Shown here: positions 2,087 through 13,124 of the stretch, one piece after another
How positions within the stretch are numbered: the first letter of the stretch is position 1
Layout: every line of letters begins with the position of its first letter
Assembly (NCBI RefSeq): GCF_037414475.1
Contig: NZ_CP147913.1
Location: 5,950,001-6,014,000 of the forward strand
DNA length: 64,000 bases
Direction: 5' to 3'
From: Myxococcus stipitatus
Lineage (GTDB): Bacteria > Myxococcota > Myxococcia > Myxococcales > Myxococcaceae
Position numbers and translations under genes: made by a program
Notes under the pieces: model-generated
Told to the model about the DNA's origin: nothing
Seen by the model: the letters and a program-made list of their open reading frames with translations, nothing else
The model's database searches: none

Positions 2087-3733
2087 TCAGTAGGGCTGGG
2101 CGCGAGCGCTCTTGACGGTGCGAGGCGCGAGCAGCTCGCGCAGCTTGCCGAGCAGGGTGAGGAACTCCTCGCGGTCGTCCAGTCCGTCGGTGGCATCGGC
2201 GGCGAGGGCGTGGAGGCGCGCGAAGCTCCGGTCGTCGTTGGGTGTGGTGCCGCGCAGCAGGTCGGCGGTGCCGGCGACGGCGATGGCGAAGCGCAGGTCG
2301 GCGGACGCGGTGGCGAGGGATTCGCGCACCTGGTTTCGCTCGAGGTTGAAGCGCTGTTCGGCGGCTTCGGAGTCGCCGGGCTTCTTGGCGCGGACGCGCA
2401 CGGTGGCGACGTGGGTGCCTTCCGCGGTGAGGTCCAGTTCGTAGAGGGCGGTGACGGTGTGACCGGAGCCGACCTCGCCCGCGTCGACGGAGTCCTTGCG
2501 GAAGTCGCTGTCGGCGATGGCGCGGTTCTCGTAGCCGAGCAGGCGGTAGCCCTTCACGGCGGTCTTGTCGAACTCCACCTGGATTTTGACGTCCTGGGCA
2601 ATGACTTCCAGGGTGCCACCGAGTTGCTCCTGGAAGACGCGGCGGGCCTCTCGCTCCGAGTCGATGTAGTAGGAGTTGCCGTTGCCGCGATTGGCCAGAC
2701 GTTCCATCAGGCCATCGCGGTAGTTGCCCATGCCGAAGCCGATGGTGGAGAGGGTGACGCCTTCCTTCACGTATTTGCCGATGCTCTCCAGCATGGAGTC
2801 CGCGGTCTGGTTCTGGCCGAGGTTGGTGTCGCCGTCGGTGAGGACGACCACGCGGGAGACGGTGTTGGCGCTGGCCTTGCGGATGGCGTGTCGATAGGCG
2901 AGCTCCAGGCCGTTGCCCATGTTGGTGCCGCCGCCGGTGCGCAGGGCGTCGATGGCGGCATGGATGGCTTTGGCTTGGCTCGCTGGGGTGGGTTCGAGGA
3001 CGGTGCGCACGTCACCGGCGTAGGTGGTGAGGGTGACGGTGTCGGTGGGGTTGAGGCCCGCGAGGGCCAGCTTCATGGACTTCTTGGCGAGGCCCAGGCG
3101 GTCATCGCCTTCCATGGAGCCGCTGATGTCGACGAGGAAGACGAGGTGCGTGGGTTTGCGCTGGGCCTTGGAGAGGTGGCGCCCCTGGAGGCTGACCTTG
3201 AGGAGGTGTTGTTGGGGAGAGAAGGGGGAGGGGGCGGCTTCGAGGGCGACGTGGAAGGGGCCCTCGGTGGGGGTGGGTTCGGGGATGCGGTAGCGGAAGG
3301 AGTTGACCCACTCCTCCACGCGGACGGTGTCGGTGGCGGGGGTGCGGTCGCTCTTCACGGCGCGGCGGAAGAGGGCGTAGGAGGCGGTGTCCACGTCCAC
3401 GGCGAAGGTGGAGAGGGAGTCCTCGGAGGTGAGGGTGTAGGGATTGGAGGCGGTGCGGCCTGGGCGCGAAGGTGGGGGTGGGGCGGGTTCGGGGTCGCCG
3501 TAGGCGCCGGTGCCGAAGTTGCGCATGGGCTTGCGCTGGAGACTGTCGACGCCGCTGGGGCGCGCGGAGGTGGAGGGGCCTGGCGCGAGTGCATCGGCCG
3601 AGTCGCCCGCGAGGCAGACGGTGCTGGAGCCGAAGTACTTGCGGATGTTGTCGCCGAAGAACGTGAGGGTGCCCACGATGGCGAGCAGGACGAAGGTCAG
3701 GACGGTGAGGACTTTGAACGCGCGCTTGCCCAT
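2087..3733 (-). CDS. Membrane-anchored von Willebrand factor A domain protein (YfbK type)
   Basis: Predicted surface or periplasmic metal-binding adhesion-type protein of about 548 residues. The chosen ATG at 3733 is followed at once by Lys/Arg and a hydrophobic segment (residues 5-27), so an N-terminal anchor fits; a reading frame open up to 3877 would add 48 unlikely residues and overlap the upstream gene. After a Pro-rich linker comes the VWA N-terminal region (EDSLSTFAVDVDTASYALF), then the VWA domain from about residue 196 with a MIDAS site: DISGS at 202, Thr in GGGTNMGNG and Asp in LTDGDTN. The C-terminal part matches the DUF3520 region that accompanies this architecture. Function unknown beyond Mg-dependent binding. 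It follows the HEAT-repeat lipoprotein gene on the same strand. Confidence 0.88.
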   Translation of the reverse strand: MGKRAFKVLTVLTFVLLAIVGTLTFFGDNIRKYFGSSTVCLAGDSADALAPGPSTSARPSGVDSLQRKPMRNFGTGAYGDPEPAPPPPSRPGRTASNPYTLTSEDSLSTFAVDVDTASYALFRRAVKSDRTPATDTVRVEEWVNSFRYRIPEPTPTEGPFHVALEAAPSPFSPQQHLLKVSLQGRHLSKAQRKPTHLVFLVDISGSMEGDDRLGLAKKSMKLALAGLNPTDTVTLTTYAGDVRTVLEPTPASQAKAIHAAIDALRTGGGTNMGNGLELAYRHAIRKASANTVSRVVVLTDGDTNLGQNQTADSMLESIGKYVKEGVTLSTIGFGMGNYRDGLMERLANRGNGNSYYIDSEREARRVFQEQLGGTLEVIAQDVKIQVEFDKTAVKGYRLLGYENRAIADSDFRKDSVDAGEVGSGHTVTALYELDLTAEGTHVATVRVRAKKPGDSEAAEQRFNLERNQVRESLATASADLRFAIAVAGTADLLRGTTPNDDRSFARLHALAADATDGLDDREEFLTLLGKLRELLAPRTVKSARAQPY

Positions 3734-3843
3734 GGGGCCTCGGAGTGGTGACGGAACGGCGAGGTGGGAGAGTCGTCGCACGGAGCGGATGCCCCGTGCG
3801 TCCGTCATCCGTCCGAGGTCGGTCGTTTGACCGATGGGGCGCT

Positions 3844-5229
3844 TCAGAACCTCTGGCGTGACAGCCATTGCCTCCATTCAGCGGGGGTCTCGAAGCCTTC
3901 GCCCGAGAGGAGTTTGAGCACGCTCACTGCGGGGTCTCGCTTGATGGGTTGCCGGGATGCGGTCATGTCCACGAGCAGCACGCCGACCTTCTGGAGGACC
4001 TCCGTGCGTCGCGTCTTGAGCTCATCGGGGTTGAGCTTCTGGAGGATGGCTTCGAGCAGGAACGTGCCCTTGTTCCGGTCCGTCGCGTTGGGCATCTCCA
4101 TCACATCGAAGACCGTCTTCAGGTCCACGACGGGGCGGTCCAGGTGCGTCTGGAAGGCGAGCACCGAGCGGATGACGTTGTTGCGGACACCGGCATGCGG
4201 GTCTCGGAAGAAGGGCACGAGCCAGGCGATGACCTGTTCGGGGGTGCCCGCGTATCCCAGGACATAGGGCACGGAGGCGCGGCGGTCCGCGTTGGCGTCT
4301 TCACTCAAGACACGCAACAGGGCGTCACGTACGCCTGGGGCTTTCTCGACGAAGCGAGGCTCGTAGGCCGCGACGTCGGGATGGCCGAAGCCGAACGCGC
4401 AGTGGGCCACGCGGCAGGACGGCGGCGCTTCGAAGTTCCAGTGGCCTCCCTTCACCAGGTGCATCACCTTGTCCTCGTACTCCTGCCACTGCGCGAGGAG
4501 TCCCTCGGGGTCCTGCACGTTGCCGGTGGGGGTGGGGCGGAAGTTCAAACGCTGTGAATCCTCGGCGTCCACCAGGTCCACGCTCGCGAAGGCCTTGCCC
4601 ACGTTCTCCTCCGCGAAGAACGCGATGATGGCGACGTTTGAGTAGGCGAGGTTGAAGCGCTCACGCAGCAGTTTCTCGCGCTGCTTCATGAGGTGTCTGC
4701 TGCGAATGATGGGCTGGCCCACCTTCAAGCCCAGTATCTGGGTGACGGATGCGGGGTCGGCTCGGCGCGAGCGAGAGATGTCGATGCTCTCGAGCACGGG
4801 AATGGGCATGGGGGGCTGTTCGGCCTTGGCGTGATTGGCGGCGACACGCGCCACCACCTCGGTCCAGCCCGCGTGCGCGTGGAGCGGCGCAAGCTCCGGG
4901 TCATGCTGGAGTTGGTCCACCACGAGGTAGCCCTGGTCGGCGGAGGACCTCAGCAGGGTCATGGCACGCTCGAGGTCTCCACCCAGCGAAGCGCATGCGG
5001 CGGCATTGTAGTAGGCCTCCGCCCGCGAGCTCGTCTCCGAGAGGGATTCGGCCAACTTCAGCCGCAGCTCGGCACAGGTCGCGAAGTTCTCCGCGTCATA
5101 GGCCTGGTCGGCAAGCGCGGACAGACCCGGAGAAGACTCGGCACTGCTCGTCGAGCCCGTGTCCTTCGTGGGCGCATGGGCACATCCCAGGGCCAACATC
5201 AGCAGACTCACTCCAAGCGGCTTCCTCAT
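3844..5229 (-). CDS. Lipoprotein with TPR-like and HEAT-repeat regions
   Basis: A 461-residue secreted lipoprotein: the signal peptide ends in the lipobox LALGC, giving a lipidated Cys16. Residues about 40-110 look like TPR helices (ENFATCAELRLKLAESL, YYNAAACASLGGDLERAMTLL). A middle section from about 140 contains short SRS-rich and FNLAYSNVAIIAFFAEENVG stretches reminiscent of POTRA-like segments, but this is uncertain. The C-terminal half reads like HEAT repeats (VRDALLRVLSEDANADRRASVPYVLGY, VRNNVIRSVLAFQ). No enzymatic motif. It ends 110 bases before the VWA gene on the same strand and may be cotranscribed. Function unknown. Confidence 0.8.
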   Translation of the reverse strand: MRKPLGVSLLMLALGCAHAPTKDTGSTSSAESSPGLSALADQAYDAENFATCAELRLKLAESLSETSSRAEAYYNAAACASLGGDLERAMTLLRSSADQGYLVVDQLQHDPELAPLHAHAGWTEVVARVAANHAKAEQPPMPIPVLESIDISRSRRADPASVTQILGLKVGQPIIRSRHLMKQREKLLRERFNLAYSNVAIIAFFAEENVGKAFASVDLVDAEDSQRLNFRPTPTGNVQDPEGLLAQWQEYEDKVMHLVKGGHWNFEAPPSCRVAHCAFGFGHPDVAAYEPRFVEKAPGVRDALLRVLSEDANADRRASVPYVLGYAGTPEQVIAWLVPFFRDPHAGVRNNVIRSVLAFQTHLDRPVVDLKTVFDVMEMPNATDRNKGTFLLEAILQKLNPDELKTRRTEVLQKVGVLLVDMTASRQPIKRDPAVSVLKLLSGEGFETPAEWRQWLSRQRF

Positions 5230-5340
5230 GGGTACCCCCCCAGTCGTGGTATCCCTCGACTGTCGTTCGTTTGGGCCGCCGATTCAAACCCCTGGCCCGC
5301 TGGCATGCAGGGGGCGGTCACCGAGAAGGACTCTCTGGTG

Positions 5341-5841
5341 ATGAATGAGCCGATTGAGCAGAAGTTCGAATCGTTGGAGTGGCATGACGCCACGTTGTTG
5401 GGTGTGGACATCGTCCGCGCGACCAGGGCGAACGGAGGGGAGATGACCGTGGAACGAATCCAGCTCAAGAAGAACCGAGAACTCGTCATTCATTCGATGG
5501 AGCCATCCGCGGCTCTCGTGATGTCGTCCGCGTTCGGGGCGTTGCTCCCCGCCTACGACGCGGAGGAGCGCCAGCAGGCCATGTCGATGGCGGCGGACCT
5601 CATCCGCGGGGGCTGCATCGAGTTCTGCTGTGTCGGGCCTGAGTCTGAACGACTCCATGATGAACTCGACGACGTCATCGTGGAGCACGGGGCTCTGGAC
5701 GTTGTGACGACGTGGGATGAAGAGCCCCACGAGGCCGTTGAGTACTTCCTGTTCGCGGCGACAGCAGGGCGAGGCAACCTGCTCGCCTTGGTTCAGGCGC
5801 ATCCGGAACTCGAGGCCCTGCTGCGACAAGTGAGGGAGTGA
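5341..5841 (+). CDS. Hypothetical protein, immunity-like (DUF7684-like C-terminus)
   Basis: A 166-residue cytoplasmic protein starting at ATG 5341 (MNEPIEQKFESLEWHDATLL). The N-terminal part contains the phrase WHDATLLGVDI and the C-terminal half the pattern GGCIEFCCVGPESERLHDELD followed by VVTTWDEEPHEAVEYFLF. From memory this C-terminal pattern (Gly-Cys, Gly-Pro-x-x-Glu-Arg, His-Asp, then Thr-Trp-x-Glu) recalls the DUF7684 group of small myxobacterial proteins, some of them next to toxins; this match is not verified. No toxin gene is adjacent. Two halves of different style suggest a fusion of two small domains. It converges with the next small gene on the opposite strand. Confidence 0.72.
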   Translation: MNEPIEQKFESLEWHDATLLGVDIVRATRANGGEMTVERIQLKKNRELVIHSMEPSAALVMSSAFGALLPAYDAEERQQAMSMAADLIRGGCIEFCCVGPESERLHDELDDVIVEHGALDVVTTWDEEPHEAVEYFLFAATAGRGNLLALVQAHPELEALLRQVRE

Positions 5842-5937
5842 GTCCGCCAGCGAAGGTCAGCCCAGCCGGGTGATCATCCGCGTCGCGGAGGGCTTCGCCT
5901 GTGTCGCTCGCACCGTCAGCAGAGCTTCCTGGGAGGG

Positions 5938-6294
5938 TCAGGAGATGGGTTGGTCGAGGACCGCCTGGTCAAACCACACATCATCCACCTCGCCATCCGT
6001 CAGGAACCGCCACCCAGGTGGAAGGGCAAGGTAGGGCAACACGAGGGGGCACCACTCCTCCAGGTGTTCGACGTGCAGCGCCTGGAAGTAGTCCACATCG
6101 GTACTGAGCTCACCTTCTCCCGCCCAGAAGAACCAGCCGACGCCTCCCGGCTGGGTGCTGTACCGCACGCCGTAGATCGGCATGGCCCCGGACCTCAGGT
6201 TTCGCGCGATGGCGACTCGCGTGCCGGCTGGGATGGGCGAGAACTCCGCCCCTGCTCGTTGGCAGACTCTCTGCTGTGCTTCGTTCAGCGTCAT
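5938..6294 (-). CDS. Small acidic hypothetical protein, possibly immunity-type
   Basis: A 118-residue protein from ATG 6294; the frame is open to 6558 but the extra N-terminus is Arg/Pro-rich and not protein-like. It begins MTLNEAQQRVCQRAGAE and has the ordered motifs GVGWFFWAGEGELS, LHVEHLEEWCP and LALPPGWRFLTDGEVDDVWFD. This aromatic, acidic composition without catalytic residues resembles single-domain immunity proteins common in myxobacterial genomes, but I cannot name the family. It converges with the gene ending at 5841 (96 bases between them), so two immunity-like orphans lie tail to tail. Confidence 0.72.
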   Translation of the reverse strand: MTLNEAQQRVCQRAGAEFSPIPAGTRVAIARNLRSGAMPIYGVRYSTQPGGVGWFFWAGEGELSTDVDYFQALHVEHLEEWCPLVLPYLALPPGWRFLTDGEVDDVWFDQAVLDQPIS

Positions 6295-6544
6295 AGGAGA
6301 ACGGCGTCGTGAACCCGCGTGATACACGCGCTCATAGGTTCCGACGCGTCTTCGTGCAAGCAAGCAGGAGAGACGGGCTCGTGGGTCTGCCGGGATGGGC
6401 GCGGCCTTCGAACGGGTGGGCGCTCGGGCTGCCGCTGGAACAGATGCGCCCTCTCTCTGGACGGCGCCGCGGAACCTCCGGCTATCGAACGAACCACGAT
6501 TCGAGCGATGATGGGAGTCGGATTCTCCTCGAGCGAGTCGGTGG

Positions 6545-7591
6545 ATGTTGTCAGGCAAGTCAGCGAAGTTCTGGCTGCTGCAGGTGTTGGGCTGGTTTCC
6601 CTACCTGCTCTTGCAGCTCCTGTTCCGGGTAGAAGACCCGCCGAATTTTCTGTTCGAGCACCTGCTCTTCGCCGCCAGCCTCACGCTCCTGGCCTTGCCG
6701 GGCAGTTTGGTGCTGCGCGCCGTCTACCGGACGAGAAGCGCGTGGCTGGGTGGTGAGCTGAAGTGGTTGGCGCTCGTCGTGGGTGTCAGCCTCGCTGTCG
6801 CGCTTGGTGTGGACCTGGGGCATCACACGCTGCTGTGGTCGCTGGCCAGCCTGCGAAAGGCCTTCGTCCCGCTGGCCGAGGATCAACCCCTGTTCGCCCG
6901 GGCCCCCCTCCTGTTCATCACCTACGTGACTTGGAGCCTGCTCTATCTGGCGCTGAGCCGTCAGGAGCGCCTGGCTCGTGCCGAGCTGTCACGGCAGGAA
7001 CTGGCGGTTGCCCTCCGTGAGGCCGAGCTGCAGAGCCTGCTCGCGCAACTCAGCCCTCACTTCCTGTTCAATGCCATCAACAACATCCGCGCGCTCATCT
7101 TGAAAGACGCAGAGTCCGCTCGCGAGATGCTCGGCACGTTCGCCGACCTGTTGCGCTATCAAATCGACAGCAACAAGGCCGCCCTGGTCACCGTCGCTGA
7201 CGAGCTGACGGTCGTCCACGCCTATGTCGCCCTGATGCGGCTCCAGCTGGGAAAACGTCTTCAATATGAGGAGCGCATCCACGGCGCCAGCCTGAGCCGG
7301 ATGACGCCCAAGCTGTCCCTCCAGTTGCTGGTGGAGAACGCCGTGAAGCACGGCCTCAGCAGGACCTCGTCCCCTGGCGTGTTGCGCCTGGAGGTCGATG
7401 CGGGCGAAAGCCACCTCCGCATGGTGGTCAGCAACTCCGGCAGGCTCGGCGACACTCCGCCCGAGAGCGGGCTGGGCCTGCTCAACCTGAAGAAGCGCCT
7501 GGCCTTGGCCTATGGCGACGCCGCCCGGTTCTCCCTCCTCCAGGAGGGGGAATGGGTCGTCGCCCGAATCAACATCGAGAGCACCCCGTGA
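6545..7591 (+). CDS. LytS-type sensor histidine kinase
   Basis: A 348-residue membrane kinase of the His_kinase (LytS/YehU) family. Four hydrophobic segments occupy roughly residues 8-28, 40-60, 72-92 and 118-138. The phospho-acceptor region carries His172 in AQLSPHFLFNAINNIRALI, characteristic of this family, and the ATPase domain has the N-box LLVENAVKHG (Asn265) and a G-box with SGLGLLNLKKRL. It is translationally coupled to the LytTR regulator: its TGA overlaps that gene's GTG in a GTGA. Together they form a complete two-component system; the signal is not deducible. Confidence 0.93.
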   Translation: MLSGKSAKFWLLQVLGWFPYLLLQLLFRVEDPPNFLFEHLLFAASLTLLALPGSLVLRAVYRTRSAWLGGELKWLALVVGVSLAVALGVDLGHHTLLWSLASLRKAFVPLAEDQPLFARAPLLFITYVTWSLLYLALSRQERLARAELSRQELAVALREAELQSLLAQLSPHFLFNAINNIRALILKDAESAREMLGTFADLLRYQIDSNKAALVTVADELTVVHAYVALMRLQLGKRLQYEERIHGASLSRMTPKLSLQLLVENAVKHGLSRTSSPGVLRLEVDAGESHLRMVVSNSGRLGDTPPESGLGLLNLKKRLALAYGDAARFSLLQEGEWVVARINIESTP

Positions 7592-8289
7592 TACGCGCAC
7601 TGATTGTCGATGACTCCGAACTGGCTCGGTTCGAACTGGAACACCAGCTGCGCTCACACCCGCAGATTCAAATCGTGGGGCAGGCGGATGATATCCACAG
7701 CGCCGAGGCCCTGATTGAGTCCTCGACACCTGATTTGCTGTTCCTCGACATCGACCTGCCGGGGGGCAACGCGCTGCAACTGCTCGAGCGCCTGGAGCAT
7801 ATCCCTCCCATCATCTTCACCACCGCGTACGAGCAGTACGCGCTGAAGGCCTTCGAGTTCAACACGGTGGACTATCTGCTCAAGCCCATCAAACCCGAGC
7901 GTCTGGCCAAGGCCTTGGCGAAGGTGGAGGTTCCGCCCGAGCGGCAGTCCCTCCTCACGCTGGACAGCCAGATTTTCGTCAAGGACGGCGAGCGCTGCTT
8001 CCTGGTCAAGCTCAAGGAGATCCGCTGCCTGGAAGCCGTGGGGAACTACAGCCAGCTGTACTTCGGAGCGCATGCGCCGCTCCTCTATCGGTCCCTGAAC
8101 AAGATTGAAGAGCGGCTGGACCCGAAGGTGTTCTTTCGCGCCAGCCGCCAACACATCGTCAACTTGAGCTACGTCGAGCATGTGGAGCCCTGGTCGAATG
8201 GTGGGTTGCGTCTGAAGCTGAAAGGCGGCCAGGAGATTGAGGTCTCCCGCCGCCAGAGTGGGTTGTTGAAGCAGATGCTCAGCTTCTGA
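7588..8289 (+). CDS. LytTR-family response regulator
   Basis: Partner of the LytS kinase directly upstream. I take the GTG at 7588, which overlaps the kinase stop codon by four bases and places the receiver domain immediately (IRALIVDDSE); an in-frame start at 7552 would add twelve residues inside the kinase gene. The receiver has Asp8/Asp9, phospho-acceptor Asp54 in LLFLDIDLPGG, Thr79 in FTTAYEQYALKAF and Lys99 in DYLLKPIKPE. From about residue 128 the LytTR DNA-binding domain follows (IFVKDGERCFLVKLKEIRCLEA, FFRASRQHIVNL, LKLKGGQEIEVSRRQS). 233 residues, normal length. Confidence 0.94.
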   Translation: MIRALIVDDSELARFELEHQLRSHPQIQIVGQADDIHSAEALIESSTPDLLFLDIDLPGGNALQLLERLEHIPPIIFTTAYEQYALKAFEFNTVDYLLKPIKPERLAKALAKVEVPPERQSLLTLDSQIFVKDGERCFLVKLKEIRCLEAVGNYSQLYFGAHAPLLYRSLNKIEERLDPKVFFRASRQHIVNLSYVEHVEPWSNGGLRLKLKGGQEIEVSRRQSGLLKQMLSF

Positions 8290-8308
8290 GCTGCTCGCGC
8301 GCCTCCGA

Positions 8309-9676
8309 CTACGGCGTCCTGACGCCCTCGCTGTCACCCGCGATGCGGTCGTGCATCGTCATCACGCTCTGGCCGTCCGCGCGCTCGCTGAAGGTGACGT
8401 GATTGAATCCCTCCGCGAAGTAGTAGCGGCCGTCAGGGCCCTGGTGCAGTTCGCTCGGGTCGTTCCCTGTGCGCTGGGAATACAGTCGACCCTCCCGGAG
8501 CAGGACTTCACGCACGACCCCTTGGCCGAAGTCGTACGCACCCAGCCACCTGGCCACGTCCAGCTTCTGCGCGGTCGTCTTCTGGTAGGGCTTCCCCAGG
8601 GCGATGGCGGCCAACTCCACCGCCAGGTCACTGGGGTCCAGGAACTCGGCGTTGGTCAGGACCGCGACGTACACCCGCTGCTCGGGGATGCGCAGGGTGT
8701 AGGCGTTGAAGCCGTTGATGAAGCCGTTGTGCTCGAAGCTCGGGACTCCTTGGACCTCCGCGGTGAACCACCCGAAGCCATAGGGTTGCTTCGAACCATC
8801 CGCCAGGGAGACCTGACGGAAGGCCTCGCTCAACAGGTGCTGGCTCACCAGCTTGTCCGAGTAGAGCGCCAGGTCCCACCGGTTCAAGTCATCCACGGTG
8901 CTCACGAGTCCTCCGGCGCCTTGAGGTTGGCTCATGCTGATGAAGTCCGCGTTCATCAGCTGCTCCCCCTGCTTCTGGTAACCCTGGGCGCGTCCAGGGA
9001 TGACCGCGAGGTGGCTTCCGTAGCGCGTGTGGTTCATGCCCAGCGGCGCGAAGATGGCGCGCTGCATGTACTCCGCATAGGGCTGCCCGCTCGCCAGTTC
9101 GATCAGCTTCGTCAGCAGGATGTAGTTGGAGTTGCTGTAGCTGAAGCGAGTGCCCGGCTCGAACTCCAGTGGCAAGTCCTTGAAGAAGGCCAGCAACTCA
9201 TCCAGCGTGGCGTCCTTGCGGCGCGCCGCGCGCGACTCCGGGATGCGGCTGATGTTCTTCACGCCAGAGGTGTGCGTCAGCAACTGGCGGACCGTGACAC
9301 CGGCGAGGGGGCCCTTGGCCTCGGGGTGGGTCTGGCTGAGCGGTTGGTCCAGGGTCAACTTGCCCGCCTCGACCCACTGGAGCACCGCCACGGCGGTGAA
9401 CTGTTTGGTGACGGAAGCCAGCCGCAGCACGCTGTCGGGCTTCATCGCCACCTGATTCTCCACGTCGGAGAGCCCGTAGGCCTTGCGCAAGAGGACCTCG
9501 TTCCCTTTGCGGACCAGCACGACCCCACCCGGCTGAGTCGGAGAGAAGACACGCTCCGCGGCCCGCTGAAGTCGAACGACGACCGGGGAGGGAGACTTGC
9601 TGTGGGCCACCCACGGCGCCGAGGTGGCGACCAGAGCGACAAGGCCAAGGATTCTCAGGCGTTGGGATGCTTTCAA
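8309..9676 (-). CDS. Beta-lactamase-fold serine hydrolase (class C/DD-peptidase-like), secreted
   Basis: A 455-residue exported hydrolase. The frame is open to 9892, but I place the start at TTG 9676: GGAG lies just upstream and a clean signal peptide follows (LRILGLVALVATSAPWVAHS). The sequence upstream of it is a decayed transglycosylase fragment, not part of this protein. Active-site motifs of the serine beta-lactamase superfamily are present: Ser88-x-x-Lys91 in ASVTKQF, Tyr180-Ser-Asn182 in FSYSNSN and an HNG triad in FEHNGFINGF. A small extra domain forms the C-terminus, as in many esterase or peptidase members. True beta-lactamase activity is not implied. It converges with the LytTR gene, 19 bases away. 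Confidence 0.9.
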   Translation of the reverse strand: MKASQRLRILGLVALVATSAPWVAHSKSPSPVVVRLQRAAERVFSPTQPGGVVLVRKGNEVLLRKAYGLSDVENQVAMKPDSVLRLASVTKQFTAVAVLQWVEAGKLTLDQPLSQTHPEAKGPLAGVTVRQLLTHTSGVKNISRIPESRAARRKDATLDELLAFFKDLPLEFEPGTRFSYSNSNYILLTKLIELASGQPYAEYMQRAIFAPLGMNHTRYGSHLAVIPGRAQGYQKQGEQLMNADFISMSQPQGAGGLVSTVDDLNRWDLALYSDKLVSQHLLSEAFRQVSLADGSKQPYGFGWFTAEVQGVPSFEHNGFINGFNAYTLRIPEQRVYVAVLTNAEFLDPSDLAVELAAIALGKPYQKTTAQKLDVARWLGAYDFGQGVVREVLLREGRLYSQRTGNDPSELHQGPDGRYYFAEGFNHVTFSERADGQSVMTMHDRIAGDSEGVRTP

Positions 9677-9974
9677 GGCGTTCTCCAGGTGGGGATTCCT
9701 GGAGCCCAAGCTACGGTCCCGAGCCCCTTCGACAGAGGGGTTTAGGACAAGCGGTCGGACCACTCCGCCAGCGGTAGGCCGACCGTGACGGGCGGGGGGG
9801 CACCTGCGCTGTGACGGTTTCCTCGGCACGCGCCCATCCATCTCCCTCGGGCCCTCGGTGTACGCGGACACCACGCGCCTCACATTCAGCACCCGCCGCG
9901 ACTGCTCCGCCAGGTGCCGCTGCCTCGTGGCACGCCTTCATGCTTCCGTTCGCATATCCTGTCGTGCACGCGCC
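9677..9974. other. Intergenic region between the serine hydrolase and a small secreted protein
   Basis: About 300 bases with divergent flanking genes. Roughly half of it (9800-9935) is a decayed copy of a transglycosylase coding segment, listed separately. I see no convincing promoter in the rest. Confidence 0.6.
9800..9935 (-). pseudogene. Decayed fragment of a lytic transglycosylase gene
   Basis: On the minus strand this stretch reads RHLAEQSRRVLNVRRVVSA then YTEGPREMDGRVPRK, which lines up with RYLAEQLRRFRDVRLAVAA and YNAGPGAVDGRVPRN of the intact transglycosylase at 12237-13124. Hand alignment of 9824-9933 with 12594-12703 without gaps gives about four identical bases in five. The catalytic half (the Glu motif and GPGQLMP) is absent and the AYNAGP motif is altered to AYTEGP, so it cannot be functional. 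It supplies the N-terminus of the long open frame that precedes the serine hydrolase. Confidence 0.75.
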
Positions 9975-10418
9975 ATGACGAAGACTGTCACCTGTGAACT
10001 GCTCCTGGTTGTCCTTGCGTTCGCCCCACGGGTCCAGGCGCTGCCTCGCTTTGCGCCCACTCCGCTTCCCACGCTCGCGGACAGGCCGCCGGTCGAGGTG
10101 CTGTTTTCGTCGACACCCGCGCGCCTGTTTGGGGGCTGGCCGTTGGTGGTCACGGTCAGGGCTGAGCTCCATGAGCAGGAAGGAAATGTGAAGGCCGCCA
10201 TGGTGGCCTGCTGCAATGCCTCGTGGGCGGAGAGTGTCCTGTTGCACGCCACAGGACGAGATAACGCGAAGAAGGGGAACATCGCTGGCATAGCCCTGCC
10301 TCGGTACGACGCTCCCTGCGAAAGGCTCAAACGCCAACTGAAGGAGGCGGCGCAGTCCGCAGGACAGCCGCCTCAGGACCTGATTCGCAAACCCGAGTCA
10401 GGGCCTCGCGTGCGCTGA
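9975..10418 (+). CDS. Small secreted hypothetical protein
   Basis: A 147-residue protein from ATG 9975 with a short signal peptide (CELLLVVLAFAPRVQA, cleavage probably near residue 22). The frame is open upstream to 9858 but that part is antisense to the transglycosylase remnant. The mature part has two cysteine-containing stretches (VACCNASWAES, APCERLKRQLKEAAQSAG) and no recognisable domain; one segment (RLFGGWPLVVTVRAELHEQEG) resembles the surface of a beta-sandwich. Not recognised. It stands alone, followed by 112 bases without features before the ASCH gene on the other strand. Confidence 0.55.
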   Translation: MTKTVTCELLLVVLAFAPRVQALPRFAPTPLPTLADRPPVEVLFSSTPARLFGGWPLVVTVRAELHEQEGNVKAAMVACCNASWAESVLLHATGRDNAKKGNIAGIALPRYDAPCERLKRQLKEAAQSAGQPPQDLIRKPESGPRVR

Positions 10419-10530
10419 GCGCCCTTGTCCTGATGAACTCCAGGCGAAGGGCGCGGATGCTCTCGGAGGCGCGGGGGATGTTCGCGGGGCTGAAGAGACG
10501 GCCGGGGCATCATCGTCGTTGCCTGCGGGG

Positions 10531-10914
10531 TCAACGGCTTGCGGGGAGGTAGCAGAACGACTGTGGAGCGGTACCGCTTTCGACCAGTGCGCGAAGGTCC
10601 ATCGGCTTCCGGTAGCGGCGAACGTTTTGCACCTTGATGGCGTATGCCGTCGTTCTGCCTGCGAAGTACTCGTCGAAGAACCGGCGGCTGATTCCAGCAG
10701 AACCCGCGGTTCGTGCCCAGAGCGTCTTGGGGCATTCAGACAACACCTCGGCGACGTCGAACTCGCCCACCACCTTGCCGACTGGCTTGGTGGCATAGAT
10801 GACCACGGTTTTCACCGATGGGTTCTTGAAGACCGCCTTGCGGAACTCGAAGTGCTTCACCCCATCGAGGATTTTTTCCGCGTACTCAGGCTTGATTGAC
10901 AACAAGACTCTCAT
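10531..10914 (-). CDS. ASCH-domain protein (PUA-like fold)
   Basis: A 127-residue protein of the ASCH superfamily, small PUA-like domains that bind RNA or modified nucleosides; the characterised member YqfB removes the acetyl group from N4-acetylcytidine. Family signs are the N-terminal LLSIKPEYAEKILDGVKHFEFRK, the strand VVIYATKPVGKVVGEFDV and the C-terminal AYAIKVQNVRRYRKP. Its start overlaps the end of the GNAT/EVE-like gene upstream by 29 bases, so the two are cotranscribed. Visibly lower GC than the neighbours suggests acquisition by transfer. Whether it is a hydrolase or only a binder cannot be told from the sequence. Confidence 0.85.
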   Translation of the reverse strand: MRVLLSIKPEYAEKILDGVKHFEFRKAVFKNPSVKTVVIYATKPVGKVVGEFDVAEVLSECPKTLWARTAGSAGISRRFFDEYFAGRTTAYAIKVQNVRRYRKPMDLRALVESGTAPQSFCYLPASR

Positions 10915-11941
10915 CGACGAGACCTCTGCGAAGGACGTTCACGAGCTGCTGATGTGTCAGGGGCATGAAGCCCCAGTATGCTCCGGCATCCATCCCTACT
11001 TCCTCGATCATCACGGCCCGCGTCACGCGCTTTCTGAGGGCGATGTTGTAGGTGAATCGGATGACATGGGGGTACTTCCTCGTCTTCCAGAGTGTCAACA
11101 GCTCCGACTCTTCGAACACGGTGTAGGGGCGACAGTACGCCAGGAATTCCTCTTGGGCCTTGAAGGAGAAGAGGGAGCGGTACTCCTCGACCACGCAGAC
11201 CGATGTCGCGACGGACCGATAGTGGGCGGGCCCCTGTCCATCCGTTGTTCGGTAGATGAGGAGGATGTCACCCCGTTTCAAGACCTCCATTCCCGACATG
11301 GCCGCGAGATAGACTTTGTGAATGCTATTGGTGTGCGACACATCTTGAACGATGTCGGCGGTCTCGGTCTTGAGGATGGAGTCGGGAAGCAGGCGGGTGT
11401 GCCACTGTGGCTGGAGCGCGAGGAGATAGGCCTTCTGATGGGCAAGCCGTACAAGGGGGTAGCTTCGTACGACATCTTCGGAGATGCCCTGGAGTTGCTT
11501 GGTGAGTACGAGTTCGGTTCCGTTGTGGGATGTCTTTGTTCCGACTTGCTGAAAGCCGTACTTCTCCAGGAGCAAAATGAGAGGCCGGTGTTCAGAGAAG
11601 ACAGTGACATATGCCTCACGAACCTTCTCGAAAATGGCGTGGTCGAAGATCTTCTTGATGAATCGTTCGCCGAGTTTGGTTCCGTGGGCGTTGATTTTCA
11701 TCGTTCCGACTTTGAGCCGGCGAGTGGGTGGAAGTGGTGGCGTCACATCTCCAACCATTCCCTCCTCGACCTTGACGTACAAAAAGCCGTCGATGAGGCC
11801 GTGCTCATTCTTGAAGACGTATGCGGTGTCTTCTGCTTTCTTGGCGAACCAGGATGGAAACTCCTTGTAGTCTGCTTTCAAGGAGTCGAAGAAGGGGTCG
11901 GACAGGTTGATGTTTTTGAAGGAGAGGCGTTCCAGGATCAT
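10886..11941 (-). CDS. GNAT acetyltransferase-EVE/PUA-like fusion protein
   Basis: A 351-residue, probably two-domain protein. Residues about 1-155 look like a GNAT N-acetyltransferase: KNEHGLIDGFLYVKVEEG, then KVGTMKINAHGTKLGERFIKKI (the acetyl-CoA loop region) and YVTVFSEHRPLILLLEKYGFQQVG, the usual beta5/alpha4 ending. Residues about 200-340 resemble an EVE/ASCH PUA-like domain: VYLAAMSGMEVLKRGDILLIYR, HYRSVATSVCVVEEYRS and VGMDAGAYWGFMPLTHQQL. PUA-like domains of this kind bind modified bases, so an acetyltransferase directed at a nucleic acid or nucleotide is an attractive inference, unproven. It overlaps the downstream ASCH gene by 29 bases. Base composition is clearly lower in GC than flanking genes. 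Confidence 0.82.
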   Translation of the reverse strand: MILERLSFKNINLSDPFFDSLKADYKEFPSWFAKKAEDTAYVFKNEHGLIDGFLYVKVEEGMVGDVTPPLPPTRRLKVGTMKINAHGTKLGERFIKKIFDHAIFEKVREAYVTVFSEHRPLILLLEKYGFQQVGTKTSHNGTELVLTKQLQGISEDVVRSYPLVRLAHQKAYLLALQPQWHTRLLPDSILKTETADIVQDVSHTNSIHKVYLAAMSGMEVLKRGDILLIYRTTDGQGPAHYRSVATSVCVVEEYRSLFSFKAQEEFLAYCRPYTVFEESELLTLWKTRKYPHVIRFTYNIALRKRVTRAVMIEEVGMDAGAYWGFMPLTHQQLVNVLRRGLVDESLVVNQA

Positions 11942-12236
11942 GGGTTCTCCGGGGAGTGGTTGATCTAAGGACTCTCCTCGAGATGGGAAGTAAGGGCAAT
12001 GTCAGGGCTTGGGCCGAGTCTGTGTTGATGGGGTTCGTCGCTCGGGGGCCGGATTCTGGAGGGGCATCCTGTGATTGGTTTGAGATGCACTTGTGGTGCC
12101 ATGAACGCGGAAAGGGTCGAGGCCCACCCGCCCCCGAGAGAAGCCGCCTGAGGACTTCAATCCCTCTCGAGGATGCACAAGTCTCGATGCCGGTTCTGGG
12201 AGACTCCCCGTCCGCGAGGGCGGATGAGATTCGTCC
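11942..12236. other. Intergenic region upstream of the GNAT/EVE-ASCH pair
   Basis: 295 bases between two minus-strand genes. The part next to the GNAT gene (about 11950-12090) keeps the lower GC of the pair, so the foreign segment may include its promoter region. No ORF, hairpin or recognisable promoter was found. Confidence 0.5.
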
Positions 12237-13124
12237 CTACCGCGTCGTCGCGCTGATGACTTGCGTCTTCGCCTGCGTCGCTCGCACCGGCGCCTTCGCG
12301 GGAGTCGCCGGAGGCTTGACCGTGGCACGCGGCCGGACCGGCGCGGAGGGCTTGGCCGCCACGGGCTTGCGCGCGGGTGGCGCATCAGGCGAGGGCCTCG
12401 TGTTCTCGATGCTCCTCACGGGCACGGTCGCCACGGGCTTGCGCGCGGGCTTCACCGTCACGGGCACCTGCGCCGGAGCAGGCCTCGCTCGAGCCACCAC
12501 CACGGGAGCAGGTCTCGGCGGCGGTGGTGGTGGTGCCGGCCGCGTCTGCGCCCAGGCCGCGAGCACCTTGGGCACGTAGTACTCCGTCTCCCCGTTCCTC
12601 GGCACGCGCCCATCCACCGCGCCCGGGCCCGCGTTGTACGCGGCCACCGCGAGCCTCACGTCCCGGAACCGCCGCAGCTGCTCCGCCAGATACCGCGCGC
12701 TCCCATCCAACGCCGGCGCGGGGTCGAACGGGTCCGGCACCCCCAGCATCGCCGCCGTGGTGGGCATCAACTGCCCGGGGCCCATCGCCCCCGCCGGAGA
12801 GATGCGATGCACCCGCCCCTCCGACTCCACCAACACCAGCGCATGCAACAACCCCGGAGGCAGCCCATGTTTCCGCTCCGCTCGCGCGATGAGCGGCTCC
12901 AACGGCTCATGCCCATCCAGGAGACACGAAGGCCGGTGCGCTCCATACGCGCGCAGCGCGTTCACCTTCATCTCCAGGAACGAGAGCGACAGCGGCGACA
13001 CCGTCGTGTCCCCCAGCCACGCAATGGCCACGTTGATGAGCACCACCGGCGTCACCGCCGCCAGCCCCACCCACGCCCACCACGGAATGCTGAAGCCGCC
13101 CGACGCGGCCCGCTTGCGTCCCAC
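12237..13124 (-). CDS. Membrane-anchored lytic transglycosylase (SLT type) with Pro/Ala tail
   Basis: A 295-residue murein hydrolase that cleaves glycan strands in the periplasm. The start is GTG 13124, 10 bases after the tetR stop; a short cytoplasmic stretch is followed by a membrane anchor at about 14-36. The SLT domain carries catalytic Glu100 in LVLVESEGRVHRISPAGAMGPGQLMP-type context and the conserved AYNAGP at 162-167. The last 95 residues are a Pro/Ala/Lys/Val-rich linker with repeated PARKPVA units, probably spanning peptidoglycan. It is cotranscribed with the TetR gene, so its expression is likely under that repressor. A decayed copy of its middle lies at 9800-9935. Confidence 0.9.
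   Translation of the reverse strand: MGRKRAASGGFSIPWWAWVGLAAVTPVVLINVAIAWLGDTTVSPLSLSFLEMKVNALRAYGAHRPSCLLDGHEPLEPLIARAERKHGLPPGLLHALVLVESEGRVHRISPAGAMGPGQLMPTTAAMLGVPDPFDPAPALDGSARYLAEQLRRFRDVRLAVAAYNAGPGAVDGRVPRNGETEYYVPKVLAAWAQTRPAPPPPPPRPAPVVVARARPAPAQVPVTVKPARKPVATVPVRSIENTRPSPDAPPARKPVAAKPSAPVRPRATVKPPATPAKAPVRATQAKTQVISATTR

Follow-up and report, generated by a model that had tools for sequence, protein, structure and literature searches.

A GNAT-EVE/ASCH gene pair in Myxococcus stipitatus: a probable horizontally acquired toxin–antitoxin module of the GevTA (PDC-M11) family

The stretch of DNA considered here (the window) comprises 64,000 nucleotides of the Myxococcus stipitatus chromosome, from a genome assembled as a single 10.3-Mb contig. 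It harbors, as the only copy in that genome, two overlapping genes that encode a GNAT-EVE fusion protein (GevT-like) and a small ASCH protein (GevA-like) (Table 1), with a lytic-transglycosylase-like gene on one side and a VWA-domain gene on the other (both named from sequence reading only). A first-pass annotation had drawn attention to the 29-base overlap and to a base composition unlike that of the neighbors, and both features are real. Among all 1-kb bins of the window, the lowest GC is that of 11001–12000 (0.550); GC and GC3 are 0.55 and 0.72 for gevT and 0.58 and 0.75 for gevA, below those of the neighboring genes (GC 0.60–0.72, GC3 0.81–0.87). Since both proteins have full-length relatives (36–79% identity) in unchanged gene order, the pair is more than a chance arrangement, and its description as a GNAT-EVE/ASCH pair is confirmed. 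A scan for sigma-70 promoters and terminators across the two-gene unit found no promoter-like site.

Table 1. Features of the gene pair (window positions) and of related loci cited in the text (positions within each locus, L-numbers)
Feature	Positions	Strand	Description and basis
GevT-like protein, 351 aa	10886..11941	-	ATG start; GNAT-EVE; predicted toxin; PDC-M11A (PADLOC 7.4e-141, residues 3-349 of 351); AlphaFold2 and Foldseek; 75-member alignment
GNAT domain, approx. residues 1-150	11492..11941	-	Profile match to 8osp, 1tiq; Foldseek Naa10, PaiA
EVE/PUA-like domain, approx. residues 171-351	10889..11431	-	Foldseek 6p0f (McrB N-domain), 2ar1
GevA-like ASCH protein, 127 aa	10531..10914	-	ATG start; predicted antitoxin; PDC-M11B (PADLOC 2.5e-50, residues 1-125 of 127); Pfam ASCH 1.2e-6; Foldseek ZmASCH TM 0.89
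Overlap of gevT end and gevA start, 29 nt	10886..10914	-	
1.83-kb segment	10434..12266		Missing in congener G120; holds the two genes only
psiM2 locus (L215)	2925-3308		
psiM100 locus (L217)	2545-4390		PIN-GNAT-EVE upstream of ORF5
Composite locus L068	2215-6125		
Composite locus L079			
Composite locus L083	2618-8213		
Composite locus L084	2239-7892		
Composite locus L076			Cut by locus edge

How did the pair reach this site? Congener G120 has the empty site, with the flanks 131 bp apart as against 1,833 bp in the window, which indicates that the pair arrived without mobility genes. None mark the insertion, and no direct repeats of 9 nt or more were found at its ends. Between the window and the copies in G130 and G093, similarity is confined to the two genes and does not extend into the flanks. 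In the tree, the window protein groups with two other myxobacterial copies, near those of Dyella, Legionella and Paraburkholderia, so that the pair probably came from Proteobacteria, the deeper forks having moderate support. The variable site between the VWA-domain and transglycosylase-like genes corresponds to window positions 3842–12267. Near a serine hydrolase gene, 102 bp at 9819–9920 resemble a part of the transglycosylase-like gene (around 12595–12696) with about 80% identity, which points to earlier recombination here.

The pair does not represent a new system. In PADLOC, both proteins match PDC-M11 over their full length, and by this measure the pair is already catalogued, as a member of the PDC-M11/GevTA/GNAT-EVE-ASCH family. 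Gene order and adjacency are those of the PADLOC candidate phage-defense system, from which the window copy shows no substantial difference, being the short two-gene form that lacks both the PIN domain and an AAA_17 ATPase. (Of the 150 nearest-neighbor proteins scanned, from loci L028–L107, 18 match an AAA_17-type ATPase.) The homologues in Escherichia phage PhiR47_2 (PV340567.1), annotated by the depositors as "GevT toxin" and "GevA antitoxin," are 45% and 58% identical to the window proteins and have the same architecture and overlapping order. The window pair differs in being chromosomal in a myxobacterium rather than in a prophage, and in its overlap of 29 rather than 23 nt. In PhiR47_2, the pair directly follows cI and is co-directional with it, the place that rexAB occupies in lambda. 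TacT and AtaT likewise belong to two-gene modules with a GNAT toxin, in which the partner is an RHH protein; the GevTA partner is instead an ASCH protein, and GevT has an additional EVE domain. Modules of GNAT-EVE, with or without PIN, plus ASCH were predicted to be toxin–antitoxin systems common in prophages by Bell et al. 2020 (PMC7641849), none having been characterized at that time. These share domain architecture and partner with the window pair, which lacks the PIN domain and an adjoining type I restriction system. In the open literature, Bell et al. is the only published work found on GevT/GevA, PDC-M11 or GNAT-EVE. No phage-protection assay of the PDC-M11 family was found in the published literature, where it stands as a candidate system, and neither ASCH nor GNAT is mentioned in a paper on functional selection of defense systems (PMC9519451).

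Relatives of GevTA occur in many phyla, on conjugative plasmids, in prophages and on chromosomes, some of them adjoined by homologues of GajB, ThsA or JetA, which bears out the suggestion of a defense or mobile-element setting. At 99% identity or more, the pair is present in 274 of 5,426 complete E. coli genomes. The ASCH partner is nearly obligate: of 80 species genomes, 75 have GevA adjoining GevT, two of them across a gap of 0.3–0.9 kb. In Pseudomonadaceae, ASCH accompanies GevT or PIN-GNAT-EVE in all eight genomes that have either, and of three genomes in that family that seemed to have ASCH only, two proved to carry a divergent PIN-GNAT-EVE upstream. Distances among GevT sequences co-vary with those among GevA sequences (r = 0.59; at most 0.10 in shuffles). 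Of the 85 loci with both genes, 75 have an overlap of 23 nt and 7 one of 29 nt, so that 82 show exactly one length or the other, and the overlap is 23 nt in the archaeal phage psiM100 as well (4001–4023 of L217). The constancy of the overlap at about 45% protein identity suggests that GevA is made by translational coupling. The pair in Lactobacillus prophage Lj965 is immediately preceded by four tRNA genes (L027 4292–4868). Nearby tRNA genes were rejected as a hint to the target, their density being close to background over 90 loci (1.05 Mb) with one host tRNA operon set aside.

The predicted structure of GevT (AlphaFold2, pLDDT 89.9, pTM 0.87, with a poorly predicted linker at residues 190–203) agrees with the reading of the protein as a GNAT fused to a PUA-like domain. 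Foldseek returned many GNATs and, for the second domain, EVE/YTH-like structures, namely 6p0f and the EVE protein 2ar1. Pfam recognizes GNAT in about 37 of 75 GevT relatives (about half) and EVE in 13; the window GevT itself falls under the Pfam thresholds, with a sub-threshold GNAT match, and only GevA is significant in the window pair. The active site is unusual. At residue 125, the position of the general-acid tyrosine of GNATs, 70 of the 75 relatives have Phe or Leu, four have Ile or Met, and one has Tyr; the window GevT carries Leu and lacks the catalytic tyrosine of the YxxxGF motif of the TacT/AtaT type. The first glycine of the CoA loop is replaced by Arg, Lys or Leu in all members of the 75-member alignment. 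With both of these replaced, acetyl transfer by GevT is not certain. Thr88, Gly91, Tyr111, Thr113 and Phe130 are invariant in the family.

Natural broken copies bear on the roles of the two proteins. Congener G131 has the pair where the window has it (flanks about 85–88% identical), with GevT residues ~62–310 deleted in frame next to a GevA that is 90% identical. In G076, residues 234–321 of PIN-GNAT-EVE are deleted with a change of frame, and the ASCH gene is intact. Among the E. coli matches listed (the broken copies were counted in a sample of 60 of the 274 records), MSI001 has an IS5 in gevT and UID2404240032 a gevT frameshift, both with gevA intact. The archaeal phage psiM2 is without ORFD, the PIN-GNAT-EVE protein of psiM100, and keeps the shared ASCH gene ORF5. 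In at least five elements, then, GevT is lost or broken and the ASCH protein kept. As a sign of a toxin–antitoxin relationship this polarity is suggestive only, since gevT makes up about 73–79% of the target length (73% of the pair, more in the PIN forms) and five of five would be expected by chance with p ~0.24. In SCU-485 both genes are broken and the surrounding prophage region carries other frameshifts; in G090 remnants of the two genes persist. The converse arrangement, an intact GevT with no adjacent GevA, speaks against a toxin–antitoxin relationship and is found in five Rhizobiaceae/Phyllobacteriaceae loci that form one clade with a single origin (99/99). There, a divergent HTH-ASCH gene and its own PIN-GNAT-EVE partner lie upstream, and the HTH-ASCH protein may substitute for GevA. 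These composite loci have PIN-GNAT-EVE and HTH-ASCH on one strand and the GevA-less GNAT-EVE on the opposite strand; after the latter comes a 384-aa protein with hydrophobic C-terminal stretches and no assigned family, and in some loci an HNH_5 gene lies between.

We consider it probable, at about 0.62, that the pair was acquired horizontally and is a toxin–antitoxin module resembling type II. This reading fits better than the alternatives because the ASCH protein is retained after GNAT loss, the overlap is strict and the coliphage homologues are annotated as toxin and antitoxin. What we infer about toxicity, neutralization, trigger, target and phage protection would run as follows. GevT would be an acetyltransferase that uses acetyl-CoA as donor and binds nucleic acid through its EVE domain, with a modified RNA base as the most likely ligand. 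Free GevT would acetylate a component of the translation machinery (as a first guess, tRNA or aminoacyl-tRNA), and growth would stop. GevA, translated by coupling from the overlapping start, would bind GevT and keep it inactive. GevT would be released when a phage infects or the element is lost, leading to abortive defense or to maintenance of a plasmid or prophage. A more specific version, in which GevT acetylates a modified base presented in nucleic acid by the EVE domain and does so without the usual GNAT tyrosine, would involve a chemistry and target not yet known from toxins, and we regard it as unlikely.

Does the local copy defend its host? It may instead be a selfish addiction unit or a relic with no defense role in this host, which is compatible with the toxin–antitoxin reading but not with a defense function here. 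This is a minority possibility, yet the strongest of the alternatives. The pair is sporadic, being intact in two of 27 congeners with a remnant in a third; no defense genes are adjacent to it in the window; and the flank-to-flank distance among congeners varies between less than 1 kb and some 13 kb, with unrelated cargo. For this last reason, a defense-island interpretation of the site was rejected. On the other hand, the frames are intact and every family-invariant residue is kept, so the window pair has been under selection recently.

A further alternative is that the pair marks bases: GevT would acetylate a DNA or RNA base, and the EVE and ASCH domains would read the mark to tell self from non-self, toxicity not being the main function. 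EVE and ASCH domains are binders of modified bases (PMC7641849), and DNA base acetylation was proposed for the GNAT-EVE/ASCH family by Iyer et al., as cited in PMC7641849. Phages of Streptococcus and Oenococcus also carry a conserved set of a ParB_N protein, an ABC-type ATPase, a small stand-alone GNAT and a GevA-like ASCH protein (L211 2385–4369, L212 2358–4360, L213 2189–4381), perhaps a DNA-modification cassette. (With a separate GNAT alongside, the orphan GevA of these phages was set aside as a case of a lone antitoxin.) However, the repeated retention of ASCH after loss of GNAT-EVE, the fact that the two-gene unit of the window encodes no nuclease and no other effector, and the occupation of the rexAB slot in lambdoid phages all argue against base marking, which we regard as unlikely.

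The remaining alternatives turn on GevA. Its predicted model (AlphaFold2, pLDDT 94.9) matches ZmASCH of Zymomonas mobilis (PDB 5guq) far better (Foldseek 1.6e-11, TM 0.89, with identity of about 29%) than it does YqfB (1.2e-3, TM 0.58). ZmASCH is a single-strand-specific RNase, which raises the question of reversed roles, with GevA as the RNase effector and GevT as its regulator. The equivalents of ZmASCH Tyr47, Gln127 and Ser128 (Tyr40, Gln118 and Ser119) are invariant in GevA, but Lys53, required for normal binding in ZmASCH, is Gly46 in 71 of 72 GevA proteins. With the pocket residues conserved and this lysine replaced, a nucleic-acid-binding pocket in GevA is likely and RNase activity doubtful. 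The activity of ZmASCH is itself described as weak, and GevA persists alone in several genomes and phages that have lost GevT, all of which makes a reversal of roles quite improbable.

Least credible of all is a writer and eraser, with GevT adding an acetyl group that GevA hydrolyzes in the manner of the N4-acetylcytidine (ac4C) amidohydrolase YqfB: GevA shares the ASCH fold, and in a short, weak profile alignment (register fixed by the common GxKxxxxR motif) its Lys20 and Arg25 fall on YqfB Lys21 and Arg26, but YqfB requires Lys21, Thr24, Arg26 and Glu74, its nucleophile Thr24 is essential by mutation, and that position is Glu23 in all 72 GevA proteins. The suggestion in the first-pass annotation that the ASCH protein may remove an acetyl mark is thus not supported, while the fusion, the partner, the foreign composition and the setting that it described all hold. 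Of the findings named beforehand as contrary to it (an N-terminal half without a GNAT fold, a C-terminal half that is not PUA-like, homologues scattered without the ASCH partner, an ordinary GC context), none was made.

By tying the pair to PDC-M11/GevTA, the analysis removes its supposed novelty. For a poorly understood family it adds that the gene overlap hardly varies from phylum to phylum, that the core of the predicted toxin has been deleted in nature beside ASCH genes that stay intact, that the insertion site exists in a clean, empty form, and that the sequences speak against acetyl removal of the YqfB kind. These points, the archaeal phages psiM100 and psiM2 included, make the toxin–antitoxin prediction directly testable.
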